Origin: Clostridiaceae bacterium
GTDB lineage: Bacteria; Bacillota; Clostridia; Tissierellales; Sporanaerobacteraceae
DNA: 39,075 nucleotides
Direction: 5' to 3'
Assembly: GCA_019391515.1 (NCBI GenBank)
Contig: JAHXQP010000012.1
Coordinates: 1-39,075, forward strand
The translations under genes were made by a program, and so were the position numbers. Below the pieces are notes generated by a model. That model searched no databases. It was given only the letters and a program-made list of their open reading frames with translations, and was not told the origin of the DNA. Shown here in pieces: positions 14,989-38,080 of the stretch; the first letter of the stretch is position 1, and each line of letters begins with the position of its first letter.

Positions 14989-16899
14989 ATGGAAGATATA
15001 AAAAAATATTTAGGAGGAAATTACGATATTATAGTAGTTGGAGCAGGCCATGCAGGTTGTGAAGCGGCATTAGCTAGTAGCAGAATGGGTATGAAAACTT
15101 TAATGCTAACTATGACTTTAGATTCTATTGCTTCAATGCCTTGTAATCCTAATATTGGAGGCACTGGGAAAGGACATTTAGTTAGAGAAATAGATGCCCT
15201 AGGTGGAGAAATGGCGTTAAATATAGATAAATCTTTCATACAGAGTAGAATGCTAAACACATCTAAAGGACCAGCTGTCCATTCTTTAAGAGTTCAAGCA
15301 GACAAAAAGAAATACCATATGGAAATGAAAAAAGTTATTGAAGATGAAGAAAACTTAGATTTAAGGCAGGGAGAAGTAATAGATATAATAGTTGAAGACA
15401 ATATGGTTAAAAGTGTAGTAACAAGAACAGGGGCTGTATACAATGGAAAAGCAATTATATTATGTACAGGCACCTATTTAAAAGGAAGAATATATATAGG
15501 CGAAGTAGATTATGCAAGTGGACCAGATGGTCTCTTTCCTTCAAATATACTATCTGATTCTTTAGAAAGACTTGGAATTGACCTAAGGAGATTTAAAACA
15601 GGTACTCCAGCAAGAGTCCATAAAGATAGTATAGATACTTCAAAGATGGAAATACAGCCAGGAGATGAAGAAATAGTTCCATTTTCATTTTTAAATATAG
15701 ATAAAAAATTTGATATAAATCAGGTGCCCTGTTACCTCACCTATACAACAGAAGAAACCCATGAGATTATAAGGGAAAATTTAGATAGATCTCCTATGTA
15801 TTCAGGTGTAATTGAAGGTGTAGGACCAAGATATTGTCCTTCTATTGAAGATAAGGTAGTTAGATTTGCTGATAGGAATAAACACCAGATATTTATTGAA
15901 CCAGAAGGATTAGATACAAAAGAAATGTATGTTCAAGGAATGAGTAGTACTCTTCCAGAAGAAGTTCAAATAGAAATGTATAAAAAAGTTATTGGTCTTG
16001 AAAATGTTAAATTCATGAGAAGTGCTTATGCCATTGAATATGATTGTATAGACCCTACAATACTTAAAACTACGTTGGAACATAGGGGAATAAACCATTT
16101 ATTTTTTGCAGGCCAAATAAATGGTTCTTCGGGATATGAGGAAGCGGCAGCTCAAGGACTGATAGCTGCAATAAATGCAGTTCAAAATATAAAAGGTAGA
16201 GAACCATTTATATTAGATAGATCTGAAGCTTATATAGGGGTTCTTATAGATGATTTAGTAACTAAAGGAACTAATGAACCTTACAGGATGATGACATCTA
16301 GAGCAGAGTATAGACTTACACTAAGACAGGACAATGCAGACTTAAGACTTACGGAAAAAGGTTATAAAATAGGTCTTGCTAGTGAAGAAAGATATAAGAA
16401 AGTGATTCGTAAAAAAGAGTTAATAGAGAAAGAGCTAGAAAGATTAAAAGATACTATTGTAACCCCAACAAAAGAAATAAACTCCTTTTTAGAAAGAAAT
16501 AATAGTGCAAAGTTGAAGACTGCTAGTAGTTTATATGACCTAATAAAAAGACCTGAACTTGGATATGAAAAATTGAAAGAAATAGATATAGATAGAGAAG
16601 ATATACCTAGAGAAATTCGACTTCAAGTTGAAACTCATATAAAATACGAAGGATACATAAGAAAACAAATGTTTCAGATAGAACAGTTTAAGAAACTAGA
16701 AAACAAAAAACTTCCAGAAGATATGGATTATAAGGATGTTAAAGGGTTGAGCAATGAAGCAATACAGAAATTAAATGATATAAAACCAGATTCAGTAGGG
16801 CAAGCTTCGAGAATATCAGGCGTTTCACCTGCCGATGTAAATGTTTTATTAATATATCTTGAGCATAAAAGAAGAAATAGGAGTGGAAAGGATGACTAA
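14989..16899 (+). CDS. mnmG: tRNA uridine 5-carboxymethylaminomethyl modification enzyme MnmG (GidA)
   Basis: FAD-dependent partner of MnmE in wobble-uridine modification. The 636-aa product has the N-terminal dinucleotide-binding motif [18 protein letters not shown], the family signatures [22 protein letters not shown] and [11 protein letters not shown], and the C-terminal tRNA-binding helices ending [20 protein letters not shown] 14989 follows AAGGAGG. Its stop overlaps the rsmG start (ATGACTAA), which couples translation. Confidence 0.97.
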
Positions 16900-17608
16900 T
16901 GTAGACGCTTTAGTTAAAAATGCTGAAAATCTAAAGATCTCTTTAAAAAAAGAGGATATAGATAAGTTTATTTTATATAAGGAACTACTTAAAGAATGGA
17001 ATGAAAAAATAAATATAACAGCTATAAAAGATGATAAAGAAATAGATATAAAGCATTTTTTAGATAGTATTACTTTGACAAATACAGGTTTGTTTAATGG
17101 AAAAATTAGAGTAATAGACATTGGAACTGGAGGAGGTTTTCCAGGCCTTCCATTAAAAATAATTAATGATAATATAGATTTAGTACTTTTAGATAGTTTA
17201 AATAAGAGGATTAATTTTTTAGATGAAGTAATATCTAAATTAAAATTAAATAATGTAGAAACTATTCATGGAAGAGCCGAAGACTATGGAAAAGATGACA
17301 ATTATAGAGGAAAATTCCATATTGCTACTTCTAGAGCTGTTGCTTCTTTAGATGTTTTAAGTGAATATACTTTACCTTTTGTAAAAGTTGGAGGCCATTT
17401 TATTGCCATGAAAGGTGAAGATATTGAAGAAGAATTAAAAAATGCAGAAAATGCTATAAAAACTTTAGGTGGAAGATTTAAAGAGAAGATTTTAATTAAA
17501 TTGCCAAGTACAGATATAGTCCATAGTTTGATAATAATAGAGAAGATAAAAGAAACTTTGCCAAAATATCCTAGGCAAGCAGGAAAACCAAAGAAAAAAC
17601 CCTTATAA
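16892..17608 (+). CDS. rsmG: 16S rRNA (guanine527-N7) methyltransferase RsmG (GidB)
   Basis: SAM-dependent methyltransferase acting on G527 of 16S rRNA. The 238-aa product shows [19 protein letters not shown], the SAM-binding motif [17 protein letters not shown], and [21 protein letters not shown]. The start is ATG 16892, with GGAGTGGAAAGG upstream, overlapping the mnmG stop. A longer in-frame reading from 16859 would lie inside mnmG and lacks support. Confidence 0.95.
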
Positions 17609-17715
17609 TTTATATAATATTGTTGAACGAAAGATTATTAAAAAAGAAGGAAGATTTATTGATATATAGAATATTTATTAAGTAAGGTAAAGTCCAAAAG
17701 GAAGAGGGATGAAGG

Positions 17716-18510
17716 ATGAAGAATATTCAATCTGAAATCAAAAATATACCTATAGATTCTATAAAACCAAATCCTTATCAACCTAGAAAAAATTTCAATA
17801 AACAATCTTTAGAAGAATTAAGTCAATCTATAAAAACTTATGGCCTTATACAACCTATAAGTGTTAGACAGTTATGCGAAGAGAGCTATGAGCTTGTGGC
17901 AGGAGAAAGACGATTGAGAGCTTCTGAGATTGCAGAGCTAGATGAAATCCCTGCTATAATAGTTGACTATAAAGACCAAGATTCCGCAATGATTGCATTG
18001 ATAGAAAATTTACAGAGAGAGGATTTAAATTTTGTTGAAGAAGCTGAAGGTTATTATAATTTAATTAAAGATCATGGGTTTACTCAACAAGAGTTAGCTG
18101 AAAAGCTTGGAAAGAGTCAGTCTACTATTGCTAATAAGTTGAGAATACTTAAACTTTCTGATGAGATTAAAAAAAGTTTAATAGACAATAAATTGACTGA
18201 AAGACATGCAAGAGCCCTCTTAAAACTTCCTGATGATCAGATGAAAGAAGAAGTATTAAATAAAGTAATTAAAGAGGACTTAACAGTAAAGAAGACAGAA
18301 AAATTGATTGAAGATATATTAGATGATTTGACTAAAGAAGAAGAATCTGAACCTAATCAAAATGTAAAAGGACTTATTAATTTTAAAATATATTTAAATA
18401 CCCTTAAAAATGCATATAATGCTATAAAAGAAACAGGTATTGAAGCTAAATACAAGGAAAAAGATATGGGGGATCATATAGAAGTAGTAGTACAGATTCC
18501 TAAAAGATAG
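17716..18510 (+). CDS. noc: Nucleoid occlusion protein Noc (ParB-like)
   Basis: ParB-family CTPase-like protein that in Bacillus blocks septum formation over the nucleoid. The 264-aa product has the ParB N-terminal domain (KPNPYQPRKNF, ELSQSIKTYGLIQPI, the CTP-binding loop ELVAGERRLRAS and ALIENLQRE) followed by the helix-turn-helix FTQQELAEKLGKSQSTIANKLRIL. Position before soj/parB identifies it as Noc. It begins almost at the ParB core and lacks the obvious amphipathic N-terminal helix of Bacillus Noc. No Noc binding site like ATTTCCCGGGAAAT was seen. Confidence 0.85.
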   Translation: MKNIQSEIKNIPIDSIKPNPYQPRKNFNKQSLEELSQSIKTYGLIQPISVRQLCEESYELVAGERRLRASEIAELDEIPAIIVDYKDQDSAMIALIENLQREDLNFVEEAEGYYNLIKDHGFTQQELAEKLGKSQSTIANKLRILKLSDEIKKSLIDNKLTERHARALLKLPDDQMKEEVLNKVIKEDLTVKKTEKLIEDILDDLTKEEESEPNQNVKGLINFKIYLNTLKNAYNAIKETGIEAKYKEKDMGDHIEVVVQIPKR

Positions 18511-18525
18511 ATATATCCACACTTT

Positions 18526-18557
18526 AAAAATAGTAGACAAATGTCTACTATTTTTTT
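18526..18557 (+). terminator. Terminator after noc
   Basis: A 14-bp perfect stem (18526-18539 with 18542-18555) with a 2-base loop is followed by a T run. It separates noc from soj. Confidence 0.85.
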
Positions 18558-18616
18558 CTGTAAAATTAGTATATAGTATATAATATAGGTATAAAGCTAT
18601 TTTAGGGGTGTGAAAA

Positions 18617-19390
18617 ATGTCTAGAACCGTTTCTATATTTAATCAAAAAGGTGGAGTAGGTAAAACTACTACCATTATTAATTTAGGAGCTGCTATAGGT
18701 AAGAAAAATAAAAAGGTTTTAATAGTTGATGTAGATCCTCAGGGTAATACTACAAGTGGACTTGGTCTTAACAAGAGAAATTTAAATACATCTACATATG
18801 ATTTACTAATAAATGAAGTTCCAATTGAAGAAAGTATTGTAAAAACTAGTGCAGAAAATGTATTTTTAGTTCCTTCCAATGTAGAACTGGCAGGAGCAGA
18901 AGTAGAATTGGTTAAATTAGAAAATAGAGAATTAAGGCTAAAAAAAGCTTTAAAGAAAGTATATAACGAATATGATTATATATTTATTGACTGTCCTCCA
19001 TCCTTAGGGATATTAAGTATAAATGCATTGGTAGCTTCTAATAGTGTTTTAATTCCTATTCAATGTGAGTACTATGCCTTAGAAGGAGTAAGTCAGTTAG
19101 TAGATACAATCAAACTAGTTAAAAGAAGTTTGAATCCTAGTTTAGAAATAGAAGGAGTAGTATTGAGCATGTTTGATGGTAGGACAAACCTATCAATTCA
19201 GGTGGTTGATGAAGTAAAGAAGCATTTTAGGGGAAAAGTTTATACCAGTATCATACCTAGAAATGTAAGACTTGCTGAAGCACCAAGTTATGGCTTATCT
19301 GTAATAGACTATGATCCAAAATCTAGAGGTGCAGAAGCTTATATTGATTTAGCAGAAGAGTTTTTAGAATTGTCAGAGGAGGAGTTTTAA
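18617..19390 (+). CDS. soj: Chromosome partitioning ATPase ParA/Soj
   Basis: Walker-type ATPase that works with ParB-parS in origin segregation and, in Bacillus, modulates DnaA. The 257-aa product has the deviant Walker A KGGVGKTTT at the N-terminus, DVDPQGNTTSGLG, Walker B YIFIDCPPSLG and the usual EAPSYGLSVIDYDPKSRGAEAY near the C-terminus. ATG 18617 follows GGGGTGTG. parB begins at the next base after its stop, and a GAGGAG site inside the soj end serves parB. Confidence 0.97.
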   Translation: MSRTVSIFNQKGGVGKTTTIINLGAAIGKKNKKVLIVDVDPQGNTTSGLGLNKRNLNTSTYDLLINEVPIEESIVKTSAENVFLVPSNVELAGAEVELVKLENRELRLKKALKKVYNEYDYIFIDCPPSLGILSINALVASNSVLIPIQCEYYALEGVSQLVDTIKLVKRSLNPSLEIEGVVLSMFDGRTNLSIQVVDEVKKHFRGKVYTSIIPRNVRLAEAPSYGLSVIDYDPKSRGAEAYIDLAEEFLELSEEEF

Positions 19391-20290
19391 GTGGCAACTA
19401 GGAAAAAGGGATTGGGGAAAGGATTATCAGCATTAATACCTGATGATCCAATAGAGGAACTATTAAAAATTGAAGATGAAGATAAAAATGAAAGAATTGC
19501 AAATATTAATATTTCTCTTATAAAGCCAAACGAAAATCAACCAAGAAAAGAGTTTGATGAAGAGTCGTTATTAGAGCTTTCTCAATCTATAAAAACTTAT
19601 GGAATTATACAGCCTATCATTGTAAGAAAACTAGAAAAAACTTATGAAATAGTAGCAGGTGAGAGAAGATGGAGAGCTTCAAAAAAAGCAGGATTAAAGG
19701 AAATACCTTGTATCATAAAAAACATGGAAGAACTGGATTCTATTAAAATTGCTTTAATAGAAAACTTACAAAGACAAGACCTAAATCCTATAGAAGAAGC
19801 AGAAGCTTTTGAAGAATTAATGAAAAATCATGGATTTACACAAGAGGAAGTTGCAAAGGTTGTAGGGAAAAGCAGATCTTATATAGCAAATACTATCAGA
19901 TTATTAAAACTAGACGAGAACACAATAAATCACATAGAAGAAGGAAGAATTTCTAGTGGACATGGTAGGGCTTTACTTTCTATAGATAATCCAAATGAAA
20001 GAGAAAATATAACTAAAGAAATTATAGACAAAAAACTTAATGTAAGAGATACAGAAAAAATGGCTAAAGAAATTAAAGAAGTTAAGAAAGAAAAAACTTC
20101 AATGGACAATGTATTTGCAAATACTTTCTTAGAAGATACTATAATATCAGATGCAGAAGAAAGACTAATGCAACATTTTGGTACAAAAGTTCAAATATCA
20201 AAAGGGAAAAATAAAGGGAAAATTGAAATTGAATACTATGGTGATGAAGATTTAAACAGAATATTAGAAATTATTATAGGGGAAGAATAA
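19391..20290 (+). CDS. parB: Chromosome partitioning protein ParB/Spo0J
   Basis: CTP-dependent clamp that loads at parS, spreads and recruits SMC. The 299-aa product starts at GTG 19391 with the conserved KKGLGKGLSALIPDD peptide, which in relatives stimulates ParA. It then shows the ParB fold (KPNENQPRKEFDEESL, IVAGERRWRAS, ALIENLQRQDLNPIEEA), the helix-turn-helix FTQEEVAKVVGKSRSYIANTIRLL and a C-terminal dimer domain. A parS site begins one base after its stop codon. Confidence 0.97.
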   Translation: MATRKKGLGKGLSALIPDDPIEELLKIEDEDKNERIANINISLIKPNENQPRKEFDEESLLELSQSIKTYGIIQPIIVRKLEKTYEIVAGERRWRASKKAGLKEIPCIIKNMEELDSIKIALIENLQRQDLNPIEEAEAFEELMKNHGFTQEEVAKVVGKSRSYIANTIRLLKLDENTINHIEEGRISSGHGRALLSIDNPNERENITKEIIDKKLNVRDTEKMAKEIKEVKKEKTSMDNVFANTFLEDTIISDAEERLMQHFGTKVQISKGKNKGKIEIEYYGDEDLNRILEIIIGEE

Positions 20291-20306
20291 TGTTTCACGT
20301 GAAACA
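20291..20306. other. parS site 1
   Basis: TGTTTCACGTGAAACA is a perfect 16-bp parS palindrome, placed immediately after the parB stop codon. It is the nucleation site for ParB clamps. Confidence 0.95.
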
Positions 20307-20375
20307 TTATTAAAATTAAAAATCAATATTCATATACTCTTTTTTCTCGCTCTAAAGTTTAAGTATTTAAAAATG

Positions 20376-20410
20376 GAAAGATACATATAATGTATATTAG
20401 AGTATCTTTC
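20376..20410. repeat. Hairpin in leader of the 129-aa gene
   Basis: GAAAGATAC (20376-20384) pairs with GTATCTTTC (20402-20410), and a smaller ATACAT/ATGTAT pair lies at its base. No T run follows closely, so it could be a weak parB terminator or a leader structure. Confidence 0.4.
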
Positions 20411-20440
20411 TATTTAAGAGTTAATTATAGATGGGAAAGG

Positions 20441-20830
20441 ATGGAGAATGTGATAATTGATTTTAATGAAAAGGTAACTAAGAAGAAATTAAAGGAACTA
20501 ATTGTACAAGAAGGAAGAGAAGACTTGCTGCCACATTTAGAAGATTTGAAAGTAGATGAAATTGATAAAAATACTATAACTGCTATAAAAACATTATTTA
20601 ATAATAAAGATTTAATATCCTGTGAACTAAAAGAATTTGTTAGGAATGAATATTATAAATATGAAAATATGATTATTTTAATTTGTATAATTGAATATAT
20701 TCAAAGGATAATTATTTCCTTAGAGGAAAATATAGATGGAAAAACAATAGATACATTAGAATATTTAAATGAAATTAAAATAAAAATTTTAAATACAGAG
20801 TTGAAAAAGAAAATAGTAGAGTTGATATAA
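20441..20830 (+). CDS. Unrecognised 129-aa protein between two parS sites
   Basis: I do not recognise this protein. From ATG 20441 (site GGGAAAGG upstream) it is 129 aa and soluble-looking. It is rich in Lys, Glu and Ile, with an N-terminal IIDFNEKVTKKKLKELIVQEG and a central more hydrophobic segment (NMIILICIIEYIQRIIISL) that could be an amphipathic or buried helix rather than a clear membrane span. Base composition is like its neighbours. Its upstream side holds parS 1 and its stop codon lies inside the palindrome carrying parS 2, so ParB spreading should cover it. Confidence 0.7.
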   Translation: MENVIIDFNEKVTKKKLKELIVQEGREDLLPHLEDLKVDEIDKNTITAIKTLFNNKDLISCELKEFVRNEYYKYENMIILICIIEYIQRIIISLEENIDGKTIDTLEYLNEIKIKILNTELKKKIVELI

Positions 20831-20875
20831 AAGCTATTAAATGTTTCACGTGAAACATTTAATAGCTTTTATATC
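20824..20875 (+). terminator. 52-bp perfect palindrome, probable terminator with parS at centre
   Basis: Bases 20824-20849 are exactly complementary to 20850-20875. The arms hold ATAAAAGCTATTAAA and its complement, and the centre is parS. It overlaps the stop of the 129-aa gene. As RNA it would fold into one long hairpin that ends in a T-rich arm. Confidence 0.75.
20842..20857. other. parS site 2
   Basis: A second perfect TGTTTCACGTGAAACA, about 550 bp from the first, at the exact centre of the 52-bp palindrome. Confidence 0.95.
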
Positions 20876-20946
20876 TTAACATGTACCTTTTATTAATAGC
20901 TAGAATATTATATTTATAGTGATAGTAATTAATAAAAGGATGTGAT

Positions 20947-21573
20947 ATGGTGTTAAATACACTATTTATTGTAGTAGCTGTATGCTTAGATTCTTTAGCT
21001 ATAGGTATAGCTTATGGTATAAGAGAAATTAAAATACCTAAGTTATCTTTATTGATGATAGATTTTGTATGCACAATTTTTTTATTTATATCTATGTTTT
21101 TAGGTGGTGTAGTAAAAAAAATACTGCCAGGAAATATACCATCTATTATTAGTTTTTTAATTCTATTTTCATTAGGTCTATATTTTATTTTAGAAAGTCT
21201 TATGAACGTTTTAATAGAAAGACAGAAAAAATCAGATAAAAAGCTAGAAATAAAGTTTTCTAACGTAAAAATAGTTATAGATGTAATAGTAGATTGTACC
21301 AAGGCAGATATGAACAACTCTGGAGATATAGATATAAAGGAAGCAATATATTTAGGAACAGCTCTTTCTTTAGATGCATTAGGAATAGGTTTTGGAGCTG
21401 CCATGGGAAATATTAACTATATTCAGGTGCTAATTTTTTCTTTTATTTTTAATATATTTGCTATAGTTTTAGGTTTATATGTTGGGGGAAAAATAGTTTC
21501 AAAAACGGAAATAGATTTTTCATGGATATCAGGAGCAATACTTATTTTTCTTGCATTATGTAAGCTGAACTAA
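20947..21573 (+). CDS. ytaF: Sporulation membrane protein YtaF-like (MntP/DUF204 family)
   Basis: Small membrane protein of the family that includes the manganese exporter MntP and sporulation protein YtaF. The 208-aa product has six hydrophobic segments in two halves, with the paired acidic motifs VCLDSLAIGIAYGI and TALSLDALGIGFGAA. A hydrophilic loop (DCTKADMNNSGDIDIKEAIYLG) resembles YtaF proteins. ATG 20947 follows AAGGATGTGAT. Its stop lies in the following terminator. Assignment to YtaF rather than a metal exporter rests on this loop and is moderately sure. Confidence 0.75.
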   Translation: MVLNTLFIVVAVCLDSLAIGIAYGIREIKIPKLSLLMIDFVCTIFLFISMFLGGVVKKILPGNIPSIISFLILFSLGLYFILESLMNVLIERQKKSDKKLEIKFSNVKIVIDVIVDCTKADMNNSGDIDIKEAIYLGTALSLDALGIGFGAAMGNINYIQVLIFSFIFNIFAIVLGLYVGGKIVSKTEIDFSWISGAILIFLALCKLN

Positions 21574-21597
21574 GGATCTTTTAAAAGGTCCTTAGTT
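21568..21597 (+). terminator. Terminator after ytaF-like gene
   Basis: A 9-bp outer stem (21568-21576 with 21589-21597) plus an inner CTTTTAAAAG stem is followed by a T run. It includes the upstream gene's stop codon. Confidence 0.85.
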
Positions 21598-21684
21598 TTT
21601 TTATACCTTTAATAGAAATTGTAATATTGAAAAGTATATTGATATATATATATATTAATACATAGGAATGGCTGGTGGATAAAT

Positions 21685-22635
21685 ATGGATACAGTTATTG
21701 TTTTTGTGATTTTTTTCATTGGTCTTTTGACTATAGTTAAAGGAGGAGATCTATTTGTAGATGCGGCAATTTGGATAGCTAAAAAAACAGGAATTCCTTC
21801 TATGATTATAGGTGCTACTATTGTAAGTATTGCTACAACTCTTCCAGAATTCTTTGTCTCTACCGTAGCAAGTAATGAAGGGTATTCAGATATGGCCCTT
21901 GGAAATGCTATAGGATCTATTATATGTAACATTGCTTTCGTTATAGGACTGTGCTCTTGTATTAAACCCATAAAAATTAAAAAGGGTCTTTTTAATGTAA
22001 AGGGTTTTATGATGATAGGTTACTTAATAATATTTTATATCTTTGCTAGAAATGGAATAGTTACTTTTAAAGAAGGTTTTATTCTTTTAGCATTGTTTTT
22101 ATTTTTTATTATGATAAATATCTTAGAGTTTAAAGTTGGAGATGAAAACACAGGAAAAATCAAAAGAGAGTCTATACATGGTGAAAAAGATGTTATATTA
22201 AATATAATTAAGTTTATATTGGGAGCTTGGTTTATAATAATAGGTGCTCATATGTTGGTAGATAGTGGTATAAAGATTGCTAGAATATTTAAAATTCCTC
22301 AACAAGTAGTAAGCTTAACTTTACTTGCTGTTGGCACTTCTTTACCTGAGTTAGTTACATCAGTTGTTGCTATTATAAAGGATGAAGAAAATATTTCTGT
22401 AGGTAATATAATAGGAGCAAATATTTTAAACTTAACTATAGTGCTAGGTTCTTCATCTCTTGTTAGCGACAATGGATTATTTATATCGGATCAAACCCTT
22501 TATTTAGATATTCCAATAGCTCTTTTAGTTATGACTGTATTTGTTTTTAGTGGGGGAATAAAAAAGGAGATTGATAGAAAGTCAGGTTTATTACTTTTAA
22601 CTATATACATAGTATATCTTATTATATTATTTTAA
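21685..22635 (+). CDS. Calcium/sodium antiporter (CaCA family, YrbG-like)
   Basis: Cation/Ca2+ exchanger of the plasma membrane. The 316-aa product has about ten membrane spans in two inverted halves. Each half carries an alpha-repeat: GATIVSIATTLPEFFVSTVAS with GNAIGSIICNIAFVIG in the first, and AVGTSLPELVTSVVAI with GNIIGANILNLTIVLG in the second. The acidic residues in TTLPEF and TSLPEL are the expected ion ligands. ATG 21685 follows GGTGG. It stands alone between two hairpins. Confidence 0.85.
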   Translation: MDTVIVFVIFFIGLLTIVKGGDLFVDAAIWIAKKTGIPSMIIGATIVSIATTLPEFFVSTVASNEGYSDMALGNAIGSIICNIAFVIGLCSCIKPIKIKKGLFNVKGFMMIGYLIIFYIFARNGIVTFKEGFILLALFLFFIMINILEFKVGDENTGKIKRESIHGEKDVILNIIKFILGAWFIIIGAHMLVDSGIKIARIFKIPQQVVSLTLLAVGTSLPELVTSVVAIIKDEENISVGNIIGANILNLTIVLGSSSLVSDNGLFISDQTLYLDIPIALLVMTVFVFSGGIKKEIDRKSGLLLLTIYIVYLIILF

Positions 22636-22663
22636 TATAAAAATAATATTGTAATCTATATTG

Positions 22664-22707
22664 ATATATATCTAATGAAGAATTTAAATTCCTCATTGGA
22701 TATATAT
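22664..22707 (+). terminator. Terminator after cation exchanger
   Basis: An imperfect long hairpin: ATATATATC (22664-22672) with GATATATAT (22699-22707), inner AATGA/TCATT, and a perfect GAATTTAAATTC core. It is followed by an AT-rich tail. Confidence 0.6.
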
Positions 22708-23107
22708 TATTTATATTTAAATCATATAATATTGATGAAAAATTTAAGGCTTTACTTAAAATTTTGAAAGAAATAGTCAAAAAATATCAAAATGCTTGAC
22801 AAAAATACAACAAGAGTATATATCTATAACTAATAGATTATTGATTATATATGGAAATTGATGCAATTATATTACAGTTATACCATAAAAAGCTCCATTA
22901 ATCATATAAAAACATAAAATATTTAATATATTAATGGAAATCCCCCATCTAAGATAAAAAGAAATGTAATTCAAAGTTTAAAATATAACAAAAAATAAGG
23001 CTCAAGATTTAATGTATATTTATTAGCTGATATTTACATACTTTCTATATAGAGGATATAATTAATAATCTATAAAAGCTTTAAATTATTAATAAGGAGG
23101 GATTTTT
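22708..23107. other. Gene-free 400-bp region before the alanine symporter
   Basis: It contains a sigma-A promoter at 22796-22824 and then about 280 nt of AT-rich leader. A 9-bp stem is present at 22894-22902 with 22930-22938, and a strong AAGGAGGG ribosome site lies before the symporter. I found no coding sequence and no match to the glycine, T-box or purine riboswitch cores. Confidence 0.6.
22796..22824 (+). promoter_or_regulatory. Promoter of alanine symporter gene
   Basis: TTGACA (22796-22801) and TATATC (22819-22824) are 17 bp apart. Transcription from here would leave a leader of roughly 280 nt before the symporter ATG. Confidence 0.65.
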
Positions 23108-24445
23108 ATGAATTTTGGTGCTATAGTAGATACTATAAATGATTATTTGTGGGGATATGTTTTAATATTTTTATTAGTTGGTACAGGACTTTATTTTTCT
23201 ATTAGATTAAGATTTCCTCAGATAAGACAAATAAAAAGAGCATTTAAACAAACATTTGGGGGACTATTTAATAAAGATGTAGAGGCGGATAAAGATGGGA
23301 TGTCTTCTTTCCAGGCATTAGCTACAGCTATAGCTGCTCAAGTTGGAACAGGAAATTTAGCTGGAGTAGCAACAGCCATAGCTTCAGGAGGACCAGGAGC
23401 TATATTTTGGATGTGGATAAGTGCTTTTTTTGGCATGGGAACAATATTTGGAGAGGCAGTTTTAGCTCAAACTTATACTGATAGAATTGATGGAGAAATT
23501 ACTGGTGGACCTGCTTATTATATTAGTAAAGGTTTAAATAACAAAGCATTGGCTGCTTTTTTTTCTGTAGCAATAATTATAGCATTGGGATTTGTTGGAA
23601 ATATGGTTCAATCTAATTCTATGGCCACAGCAATAAACAATGCTTTTCATATTCCTAAATTCATAATAGGAATAGCAATAGCAATTCTTGCAGCACTTAT
23701 ATTAGTAGGAGGTATGACTAGAATAGCTAATTTTACTGAATTAGTAGTTCCTTTCATGGCTCTTATTTATATAGTAGGAGCATTAATAATAATTATTAAA
23801 AACGCATCTCATATAGGACCAGCATTTAGAATGATATTTCAGGGAGCTTTTTCATCGAAAGCTGTTGGTGGTGGAGTTTTAGGAGTTACTGCTAAAGAAG
23901 CGGTAAGATTTGGAATATCAAGAGGATTATTTTCTAATGAGGCAGGAATGGGTTCTACACCTCATGCTCATGCAGTTGCTAAAGTAGATCATCCTGCTGA
24001 ACAAGGTTTGGTAGCTATGGTAGGAGTAATATTTGATACCATGATTATATGTACTTTAACAGCATTAATTATTTTAACTACGGATGCTCATACTACAGGA
24101 ACAACAGGAGCTGAAATGACTCAATTAGCATTTGCAACTGGTCTTGGAAAGTATGGCTCACCTTTTATAGCAATAAGCTTGTTCTTCTTTGCTTTTTCTA
24201 CTGTTATAGGTTGGTACTTCTTTGGAGAAGCCAATATAAAATATTTATTTGGTAAAGGCGGGGTAAGATATTATAGATGGATAGTTTTTGGTTTTATAAT
24301 ATTGGGTTCTTTTTTAGAGGTTCAATTAGTTTGGGATATTGCAGATATGTTTAATGGTATTATGGTATTTCCTAACTTAATTGCTTTATTTGCTCTTAGT
24401 CCAGTTGTAGTTAAATCTCTTAAAGACTATGAGTCGAAAATATAA
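23108..24445 (+). CDS. Sodium:alanine/glycine symporter (AGCS family)
   Basis: Secondary transporter that moves alanine or glycine with Na+ (or H+) across the membrane. The 445-aa product has about ten to eleven membrane spans and the family motif AAQVGTGNLAGVATAIASGGPGA. It also has FGEAVLAQTYTDRIDG, TGGPAYYI, LFSNEAGMGSTPHAHA and IGWYFFGE. ATG 23108 follows AAGGAGGG. It is a single-gene unit with its own promoter and a 56-bp palindrome after it. Alanine is a product of AKP thiolase encoded 10 kb away, which may be why this carrier is kept here. Confidence 0.93.
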   Translation: MNFGAIVDTINDYLWGYVLIFLLVGTGLYFSIRLRFPQIRQIKRAFKQTFGGLFNKDVEADKDGMSSFQALATAIAAQVGTGNLAGVATAIASGGPGAIFWMWISAFFGMGTIFGEAVLAQTYTDRIDGEITGGPAYYISKGLNNKALAAFFSVAIIIALGFVGNMVQSNSMATAINNAFHIPKFIIGIAIAILAALILVGGMTRIANFTELVVPFMALIYIVGALIIIIKNASHIGPAFRMIFQGAFSSKAVGGGVLGVTAKEAVRFGISRGLFSNEAGMGSTPHAHAVAKVDHPAEQGLVAMVGVIFDTMIICTLTALIILTTDAHTTGTTGAEMTQLAFATGLGKYGSPFIAISLFFFAFSTVIGWYFFGEANIKYLFGKGGVRYYRWIVFGFIILGSFLEVQLVWDIADMFNGIMVFPNLIALFALSPVVVKSLKDYESKI

Positions 24446-24472: not shown

Positions 24473-24528
24473 AATATAAAATATATTATTGGGTAATGAA
24501 TTCATTACCCAATAATATATTTTATATT
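24473..24528 (+). terminator. 56-bp perfect palindrome, terminator after symporter
   Basis: Bases 24473-24500 are exactly complementary to 24501-24528, with GGGTAATGAATTCATTACCC at the centre and no unpaired loop in the DNA. The trailing arm is T-rich (TATATTTTATATT). Confidence 0.8.
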
Positions 24529-30199: not shown

Positions 30200-31543
30200 A
30201 TGAATTCTCAATTTAAAATATTAGTAGTTGATGATGAAATAGAGTACCAAGAAGTTTATAAAATGATATTAGAAGATGAAGGATATATTGTTGATACTGC
30301 TTCTTCAGGAAAAAAAGCATTAGAAAAATTGGACAGGGAATATTTTAATTTAGTACTGGCAGATTTGATAATGGAAGGAATGAATGGAATTGAGATGCTC
30401 AAAGAGATTAAGAAAAAAGATGAGGAAATAGAAGTCATTATAGTTACGGGTTATGGTTCCATTGAAAGTGCAGTAGAGGCTATTAAACAAGGTGCTTTTA
30501 GTTATTTTATAAAAGATCATGATCCTGAAGAGTTAATTTTAGAAATAAAAAAGGTAAGAGATATATTTAAACTAAAGTTTGAAAATAAAACTTTAAAGGA
30601 AGGGAATAAAGAAAAAGGTTATTTAATCGAAACTAATAACTTAAAATTTAAAGAAGTTTTAGAAGTTGCAGCAAAGGCAGCTAAAAGCGATTCTAGTATA
30701 TTTATAACAGGAGAATCAGGGGTAGGAAAGGAGATAATGGCAAGATATATTCATAAATTAAGTTTAAGGGAAGGAAAATTTGTACCAGTTAATTGTCAGG
30801 CATTATCAGAAAATCTATTGGAATCTGAATTATTTGGCCATGAAAAAGGTTCATTTACAGGAGCTATTGAGAAAAGAATAGGAAGATTTGAAGAGGCTAA
30901 TGGGGGCACTCTATTTTTAGATGAAATAGGAGAGATGCCAATAAGTATACAAATAAAACTTTTAAGGGCTCTTGATACAAAAATCATTGAAAGAATTGGC
31001 AGCAATAGGCCTATTGAAGTAGATTTAAGATTTGTAACTGCTACCAATAAAGATATGCAAGAGGCTATTAAAAGTGGAGATTTTAGACAAGATTTATACT
31101 TTAGGATAAACACTATTCCTATAAGAATTCCACCACTAAGAGAAAGACGAGAAGATCTTCCTATGTTTATTGATTTTTTTCTTAATAAATATGAAAAAGA
31201 AACAAAAAAAAGAATTTCGAAAGTAGAAGATGAAGTAATAAATTTTCTTTTAAGTTATGATTATCCTGGGAATATAAGGGAGTTAAGAAATATAATTGAA
31301 AGATTGATTGTGCTTTCTGATGACGGAGTAATTAGGAAAAAATATTTGCCAGAGTACCAAAAAAATTCTTCTTATAAATCTTTAACTTTAAAAGAATATA
31401 GAGAGTTAGTAGAAAAGGATTATATAGAAAAAACTTTGTTAGAATTTGATTTAGACAAAGATTTAGCATCTCATTTTCTTGGCATAAGCAAAAGACAATT
31501 ATATAATAAAATTTCAGAATATGATATCAATCTAGTAAAATGA
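30200..31543 (+). CDS. Sigma-54-dependent response regulator (NtrC family)
   Basis: Enhancer-binding activator of sigma-54 RNA polymerase, 447 aa. The receiver domain has VVDDEIEY and phospho-accepting Asp55 ([11 protein letters not shown]). The AAA+ domain shows Walker A GESGVGKE (about residues 171-178), Walker [11 protein letters not shown] and the sigma-54 contact loop GSFTGA (217-222), a Ser variant of the usual GAFTGA. The C-terminal Fis-type helix-turn-helix is [20 protein letters not shown]. It is encoded with the upstream kinase, and a consensus sigma-54 promoter lies just after it, so the adjoining nhaC-ortAB genes are the obvious target. Confidence 0.95.
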
Positions 31544-31580
31544 AAAAAGCTTCACAATTTTGTGAAGCTTTTTTCATTTT
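31537..31580 (+). terminator. Terminator after response regulator
   Basis: A 21-bp near-perfect palindrome (31537-31557 with 31560-31580) with a 2-base centre overlaps the stop codon of the regulator. It includes GCTTCACAA/TTGTGAAGC and ends in a T-rich arm. Confidence 0.85.
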
Positions 31581-31591
31581 ACTTTTAAGCG

Positions 31592-38026: not shown

Positions 38027-38080
38027 ATATAATATAGACTATCCTGAAGTTAGCTAACTTCAGGATAGTCTATATTATAT
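38027..38080. terminator. 54-bp perfect palindrome, bidirectional terminator
   Basis: Bases 38027-38053 are exactly complementary to 38054-38080, with TCCTGAAGTTAGCTAACTTC at the centre. It sits between the convergent UPF0180 and yyaC genes and has A/T-rich ends on both sides, so it would stop both. Confidence 0.88.

Follow-up and report, generated by a model that had tools for sequence, protein, structure and literature searches.

The question raised by this locus is why a long perfect palindrome at a gene end should have a parS site at its exact centre, and whether a single DNA element may both load the ParB clamp and end transcription. The site lies in a 39,075-nt stretch of Clostridiaceae bacterium contig JAHXQP010000012.1 (hereafter the window), where the gene order is rsmG, noc, parA, parB, parS #1, a 146-aa ORF (ORF146), parS #2 and ytaF (Table 1). 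ParB and Noc of the window differ at HTH residues, R and T in the former versus Q and K in the latter, which we take to be determinants of specificity for parS versus the Noc site. ORF146 matched no Pfam or NCBIfam family, gave PHROGs matches at E 0.055 or worse only, and had no relative among the viral contigs searched; a search of 150 genomes from the order found it in two, which both belong to the genus of the window.

Table 1. Features of the noc-parA-parB region and other palindromes in the window
Feature	Position	Strand	Remarks
noc	17716–18510	+	TIGR04285 above its cut-off
Terminator-like stem 3' of noc	18526–18555	+	14 bp, loop 2, tail score 5.1; without parS
parA (soj)	18617–19390	+	
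parB (spo0J)	19391–20290	+	
parS #1	20291–20306	.	Exact; abuts the stop codon of parB; at the middle of palindrome 20286–20311 (26 bp); tail score 1.9, not terminator-like
ORF146	20390–20830	+	146 aa, no assigned function; stop codon in left arm of palindrome
Perfect 52-bp palindrome	20824–20875	+	Putative intrinsic terminator hairpin with parS at apex; stem 20833–20866, U-rich tail from 20867
parS #2	20842–20857	.	Exact 16-bp consensus; centre of the 52-bp palindrome
ytaF	20947–21573	+	TIGR02840; downstream of palindrome, same strand
Loopless perfect palindrome	24473–24528		Without parS; gene end
Loopless perfect palindrome	38027–38080		Without parS; gene end

The two arms of the palindrome (20824–20849 and 20850–20875) are each 26 nt long, 100% complementary and 0 nt apart, and the core TGTTTCACGTGAAACA at 20842–20857 is exact. 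The first-pass annotation, which had described a perfect palindrome centred on parS with 18 bp of extra symmetry on each side and overlapping the stop codon of the upstream gene, was borne out on both points, the TAA of ORF146 (20828–20830) lying inside the left arm; its 'T-rich arm' was refined to the stem listed in Table 1 followed by TTTTATATCTTAACA from position 20867. When up to three mismatches to parS were allowed, the only other match in the window was parS #1, also exact (0.07 expected), and throughout the 2.84-Mb assembly these two were the only exact sites, a third match having two mismatches. Located 551 bp downstream of parS #1 in the rsmG-noc-parA-parB region, parS #2 is like the chromosomal parS of ParABS systems in carrying the exact 16-bp consensus palindrome (as given in the available text of PMC7022226) beside noc-parA-parB, but differs in being extended symmetrically into a terminator-like hairpin. 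The probability of 18 additional matched pairs at the local base composition is approximately 2.6e-10, and half-palindromes reached at most 12 when the window was resampled 40 times under a first-order Markov model; a chance origin was therefore excluded. An assembly fold-back artefact was also rejected, because both arms recur in a contig of Anaerosalibacter bizertensis and the sequences outside them show no likeness to one another. An Rfam search of positions 16000–24000 returned no match.

RNA folding of the palindrome gave −32.7 kcal/mol compared with −8.55 kcal/mol for shuffled sequences (z −11), so that a stable RNA hairpin, as looked for in intrinsic terminators, overlaps the stop codon of ORF146. 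The stem is AT-rich. With TransTermHP-type scoring recoded for the present analysis and the published cut-offs (−2.5 for the tail and −2 for the hairpin), the site scored 3.8 and −17.1 respectively; a stricter terminator scanner did not list it. We consider it probable, judging from these features and the comparisons below, that the palindrome is an intrinsic terminator closing the parA-parB-ORF146 unit before ytaF and that its apex is a working parS.

The same palindrome is predicted to fold stably as single-stranded DNA (−20.9 kcal/mol), which would suit a cruciform extruded in supercoiled DNA as the functional form. Such stability is true of any long palindrome, and within a 199-kb sample of this genome (the window plus 160 kb of contig C28, with gene ends from a simple ORF caller) there are four other loopless palindromes of 44–56 bp, none with parS: the pair listed in Table 1 (54–56 bp), one at a gene end in L297 and one in L302 that is not at a gene end. 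Extrusion would also be expected to abolish the duplex bound by ParB, and we regard a functional cruciform as very improbable. The sample contained 24 perfect stems of at least 14 bp with loops of 0–8, of which 20 lay at gene 3' ends, a zone comprising 10% of the bases; two of the other four were within called ORFs and two in neither class. Very long perfect AT-rich stems without parS were observed at the gene ends at 24473–24528, 38027–38080 and 31534–31583. The terminators of this genome seem to be unusually palindromic, and since long palindromes at its gene ends are commonplace, the peculiar part of the site is the parS at its tip.

The first-pass annotation would have been refuted had the flanking symmetry been absent from all close relatives. 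Such symmetry was found in two of them. The ParB of A. bizertensis (locus NZ_VULR01000019.1) is 94% identical to that of the window, whose source is a relative of Anaerosalibacter (Tissierellales). In A. bizertensis both arms are identical to those of the window, and one base differs within the 52 bp (regional mean, 1.3); it is at the centre, which reads CACATG and leaves the stem intact. DNA identity between the two is 98.2% for ORF146, 94.4% for parB and 94.2% for parA. CACATG replaces CACGTG in every parS found in G242 (L281 and L282), G013 and G029, among the matches listed, and is a natural variant of parS that is no longer a perfect palindrome. Since CACATG is the only form found in those three genomes, among the matches listed, the centre in A. 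bizertensis may still be bound.

At the window locus itself the arms are common only to A. bizertensis, with no arm changes. G002 has a single parS within a 42-bp palindrome. The left flank of the G002 site matches that of parS #1 in the window and its right flank matches that of parS #2. The left arm is the end of ORF146 in the window and the end of parB in G002, and the right arms are homologous; they differ at five of 13 shared arm positions, and at every one of the five the base pairs with the left arm of the same palindrome. Whichever state is the older, re-matching of the arm followed the arrival of a new gene end beside parS. The 551-bp segment 20307–20857 with ORF146, which sits between the two parS sites of the window, is missing from G002, where the junction is the single parS; the segment was possibly gained or lost via recombination at parS.

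Orthologous sites were examined in f7, one Tissierellales family in which parS lies 3' of noc, in many genomes approximately 12 bp away. The alignment comprised 12 sites from 11 genomes, selected for a parS-centred hairpin, G094 supplying two rows; G011, G086 and G051 (where the stem-loop is a separate one), G062 (whose examined stretches showed no parS on the noc side) and five of 20 family genomes without a pattern match were left out. The 16-bp core was invariant across the 12 rows, bar two central bases in two rows. For the ten flanking pairs, 93.3% of the cells were paired, and nine of the ten had changed on both sides. None of 500 shuffles reached the observed pairing or covariation score, nine of 500 equalled the count of additional pair types, and shifting the partner columns by one lowered the pairing to 62–69%. 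The tail score in the noc direction was 3.6–5.3 at 11 of the 12 sites, the exception being G241 (1.9, without a T-tail). Compensating changes, as looked for in terminators, were found both at these sites after noc and between the window and G002. As a pattern, separate constraint on the core letters and on the pairing of the arms is shown in f7.

In the three relatives with a near-noc parS off the hairpin centre (G011, G086 and G051), a strong separate stem-loop adjoins; in G086 the parS is approximately 110 bp 3' of noc, and in G051 the core has one mismatch. In G051 (L212, around 746) both arms of the separate stem-loop after noc have half a parS at their base, as though a palindrome had been re-centred beside parS.

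To see how widely such sites occur, we drew parS sites from 80 named loci and from genomes of the genus, family, order and class, excluding from the counts those close to a contig or locus end, which gave 230 distinct exact sites, among the matches listed, and 208 after clustering by flank similarity. For each of the three genera considered, three genomes were available. At least six extra symmetric base pairs on each side were present in 44 of the 208 clustered exact sites, among the matches listed, whereas redealing the left and right flanks among sites gave a mean of 0.97 and a maximum of 7 in 2000 shuffles; at least ten were present in 18 of 208, among the matches listed, against 0.03 expected. 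The search of relatives for parS inside longer palindromes that the first-pass annotation had proposed thus found them repeatedly, and since the fusion recurs in Clostridia, the site in the window is one case of a type. Examples with tails are L148, L109 (a T run following GGGGTGG) and L096, which sits where two genes converge. In a further locus, L029 (3938–6505) from a Bacillota MAG, TGTTCCACGTGGAACA recurs 17 times within 2.6 kb immediately 3' of a parB, an unusually dense parS-like array.

As controls, 31 non-parS perfect palindromes of at least 16 bp were found in 843,645 bases of loci, five of them with a half-length of at least 15, and Noc-type sites had at least six extra base pairs on each side in three of 38 cases compared with 49 of 222 for parS, among the matches listed. 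We set aside extension as a generic property of palindromes, as it is commoner at parS than in the Noc-type control, yet it is not exclusive to parS. Since three of the 38 Noc-type sites are extended, terminators may recruit palindromic sites more generally. By eye, the Noc-type palindromes TATTTCCCGGGAAATA at L196:1508 and L237:1525, two of the three extended ones, resemble apexes of T-tailed hairpins.

If ParB or a partner favoured a longer symmetric DNA site, the symmetry would be selected at the DNA level. Of 195 sites, among the matches listed, 145 have A on the left at position 9 outside the core and 134 at position 10, a preference that would fit a longer site, and a 20-bp site, AATGTTTCACGTGAAACATT, is suggested in the sampled Clostridia. 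Past these positions the excess in the 195 sites, among the matches listed, is of complementarity alone and not of common letters, and 65 of 195, among the matches listed, have no extra symmetry whatever, both of which argue against such a site as the reason for long arms. To tell RNA pairing from DNA pairing, G.U was counted against A.C as a strand-specific wobble test; the counts were 6 to 1 in f7 (p 0.125) and, when 142 sites among the matches listed were scanned more strictly, 0 to 1; they do not show RNA pairing to matter, as a DNA-level explanation would have it. Core mismatches analysed by orientation were mostly at the centre, i.e. in the hairpin loop. On balance, we judge selection for a longer DNA site to be improbable as the source of the symmetry.

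Terminator-like tails behind parS-centred hairpins were found in 65 of 442 directions, among the matches listed, compared with a mean of 20.1 and a maximum of 28 in 100 shuffled-flank sets. Of the oriented sites among the matches listed, one of 30 that were fused, two of 25 that were extended and 22 of 117 that were plain had a separate canonical terminator nearby (fused versus plain, p 0.046); at another threshold the same contrast was three of 47 versus 22 of 117, among the matches listed (p 0.055). These tails bear on whether the symmetry may be a mutational by-product, in which a hairpin forms at parS as the DNA replicates, one arm is copied onto the other by template switching, and the palindrome grows without any selection as a terminator. 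Template switching is reported in the accessible part of PMC7202029 to bring inverted repeats of E. coli closer to perfection, and its likeness to our case is seen in G018, G032 and G044, which differ beside the noc-side parS by a 5–6-bp indel complementary to the opposite arm, as if templated, and have half-palindromes of 14, 14 and 22 respectively. Interior mismatches are scarce (four in 142 sites, among the matches listed), as template switching predicts. Long symmetry is found away from gene ends too: a half-length of at least 14 was reached by 33 of 135 sites after gene ends, 12 of 62 away from them and four of 24 inside called ORFs, among the matches listed, and tails showed just a modest excess after gene ends (29 of 155 directions, versus 36 of 287 in other places), among the matches listed. 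Against a by-product stand the excess of tails over the shuffled flanks, the gene-end location of most long stems in this genome, and covariation across many lineages with the T-tail retained. Quasipalindrome template switching differs in being a mutational process and not a function, and it can provide variation without excluding selection. We therefore hold a by-product to be unlikely, and the best reading is that the arms have probably been kept matched by selection, template switching perhaps helping. The fusion of parS and terminator proposed by the first-pass annotation thereby gained comparative support from the compensating arms, the tails above the null, the separate stem-loop in three relatives and the other long stems at gene ends, whereas the cruciform that it also raised found none.

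The nearest precedent is provided by the DUS terminators of Neisseria and the USS terminators of Pasteurellaceae, in which, according to the accessible parts of PMC1852404 and PMC2397512, intrinsic terminator hairpins have taken over a DNA site that serves another purpose. As described there, those hairpins consist of two inverted copies of a non-palindromic motif and occur many times per genome; the parS hairpin has one palindromic parS as its apex, arms without a common motif, one to few sites per genome and a segregation clamp as the partner protein. The parS hairpin would work like the USS/DUS terminators but is not a member of that class. In the stability module of the IncU plasmid RA3, a tested Rho-independent terminator follows orf11 at the end of the partition module with parS after it, but the two are apparently separate elements (PMC7414963, as far as its available text goes). 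The first-pass annotation had known of no described fusion of parS and terminator, and none was found in the parS literature as represented by titles and the openings of abstracts, with few subscription papers covered. What seems to be new is a parS probably co-opted into an intrinsic terminator.

Termination, ParB binding and the evolutionary route that we infer would run as follows. At the DNA level, ParB would recognise the 16-bp centre and load as a clamp, as the exact match and the locus suggest. At the RNA level, the core and the AT-rich arms would fold up as a long hairpin with a U-rich tail behind it, and RNA polymerase would be released just past parS, a view drawn from the fold, the tail, the place and the comparison. 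Two layers of constraint may then act on the element, one, for ParB, on the sequence of the core and the other, for the hairpin, on the complementarity alone of the arms. A parS would be a ready-made hairpin tip that, if placed just 3' of a stop codon, could be recruited as a terminator apex; template-switch mutations may lengthen and perfect the arms, and selection for termination may retain them. A further step would be a regulatory fusion, in which ParB loaded at the site alters termination at the hairpin there, either strengthening it as a roadblock or competing with RNA polymerase, and so feeds back on noc/parAB expression, while termination keeps transcription from sweeping the ParB clamp off. 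We regard this step as tentative and rather unlikely, and that ParB and termination influence each other is speculation.

If the proposed role is true, centromere sites would be more than binding sites in spare DNA, and in a number of Clostridia they would also stop transcription of the segregation genes. It would tie the loading of the ParB clamp to transcription in a way that can be tested, and would offer a natural series of fused, side-by-side and separate arrangements for asking whether transcription through parS matters.
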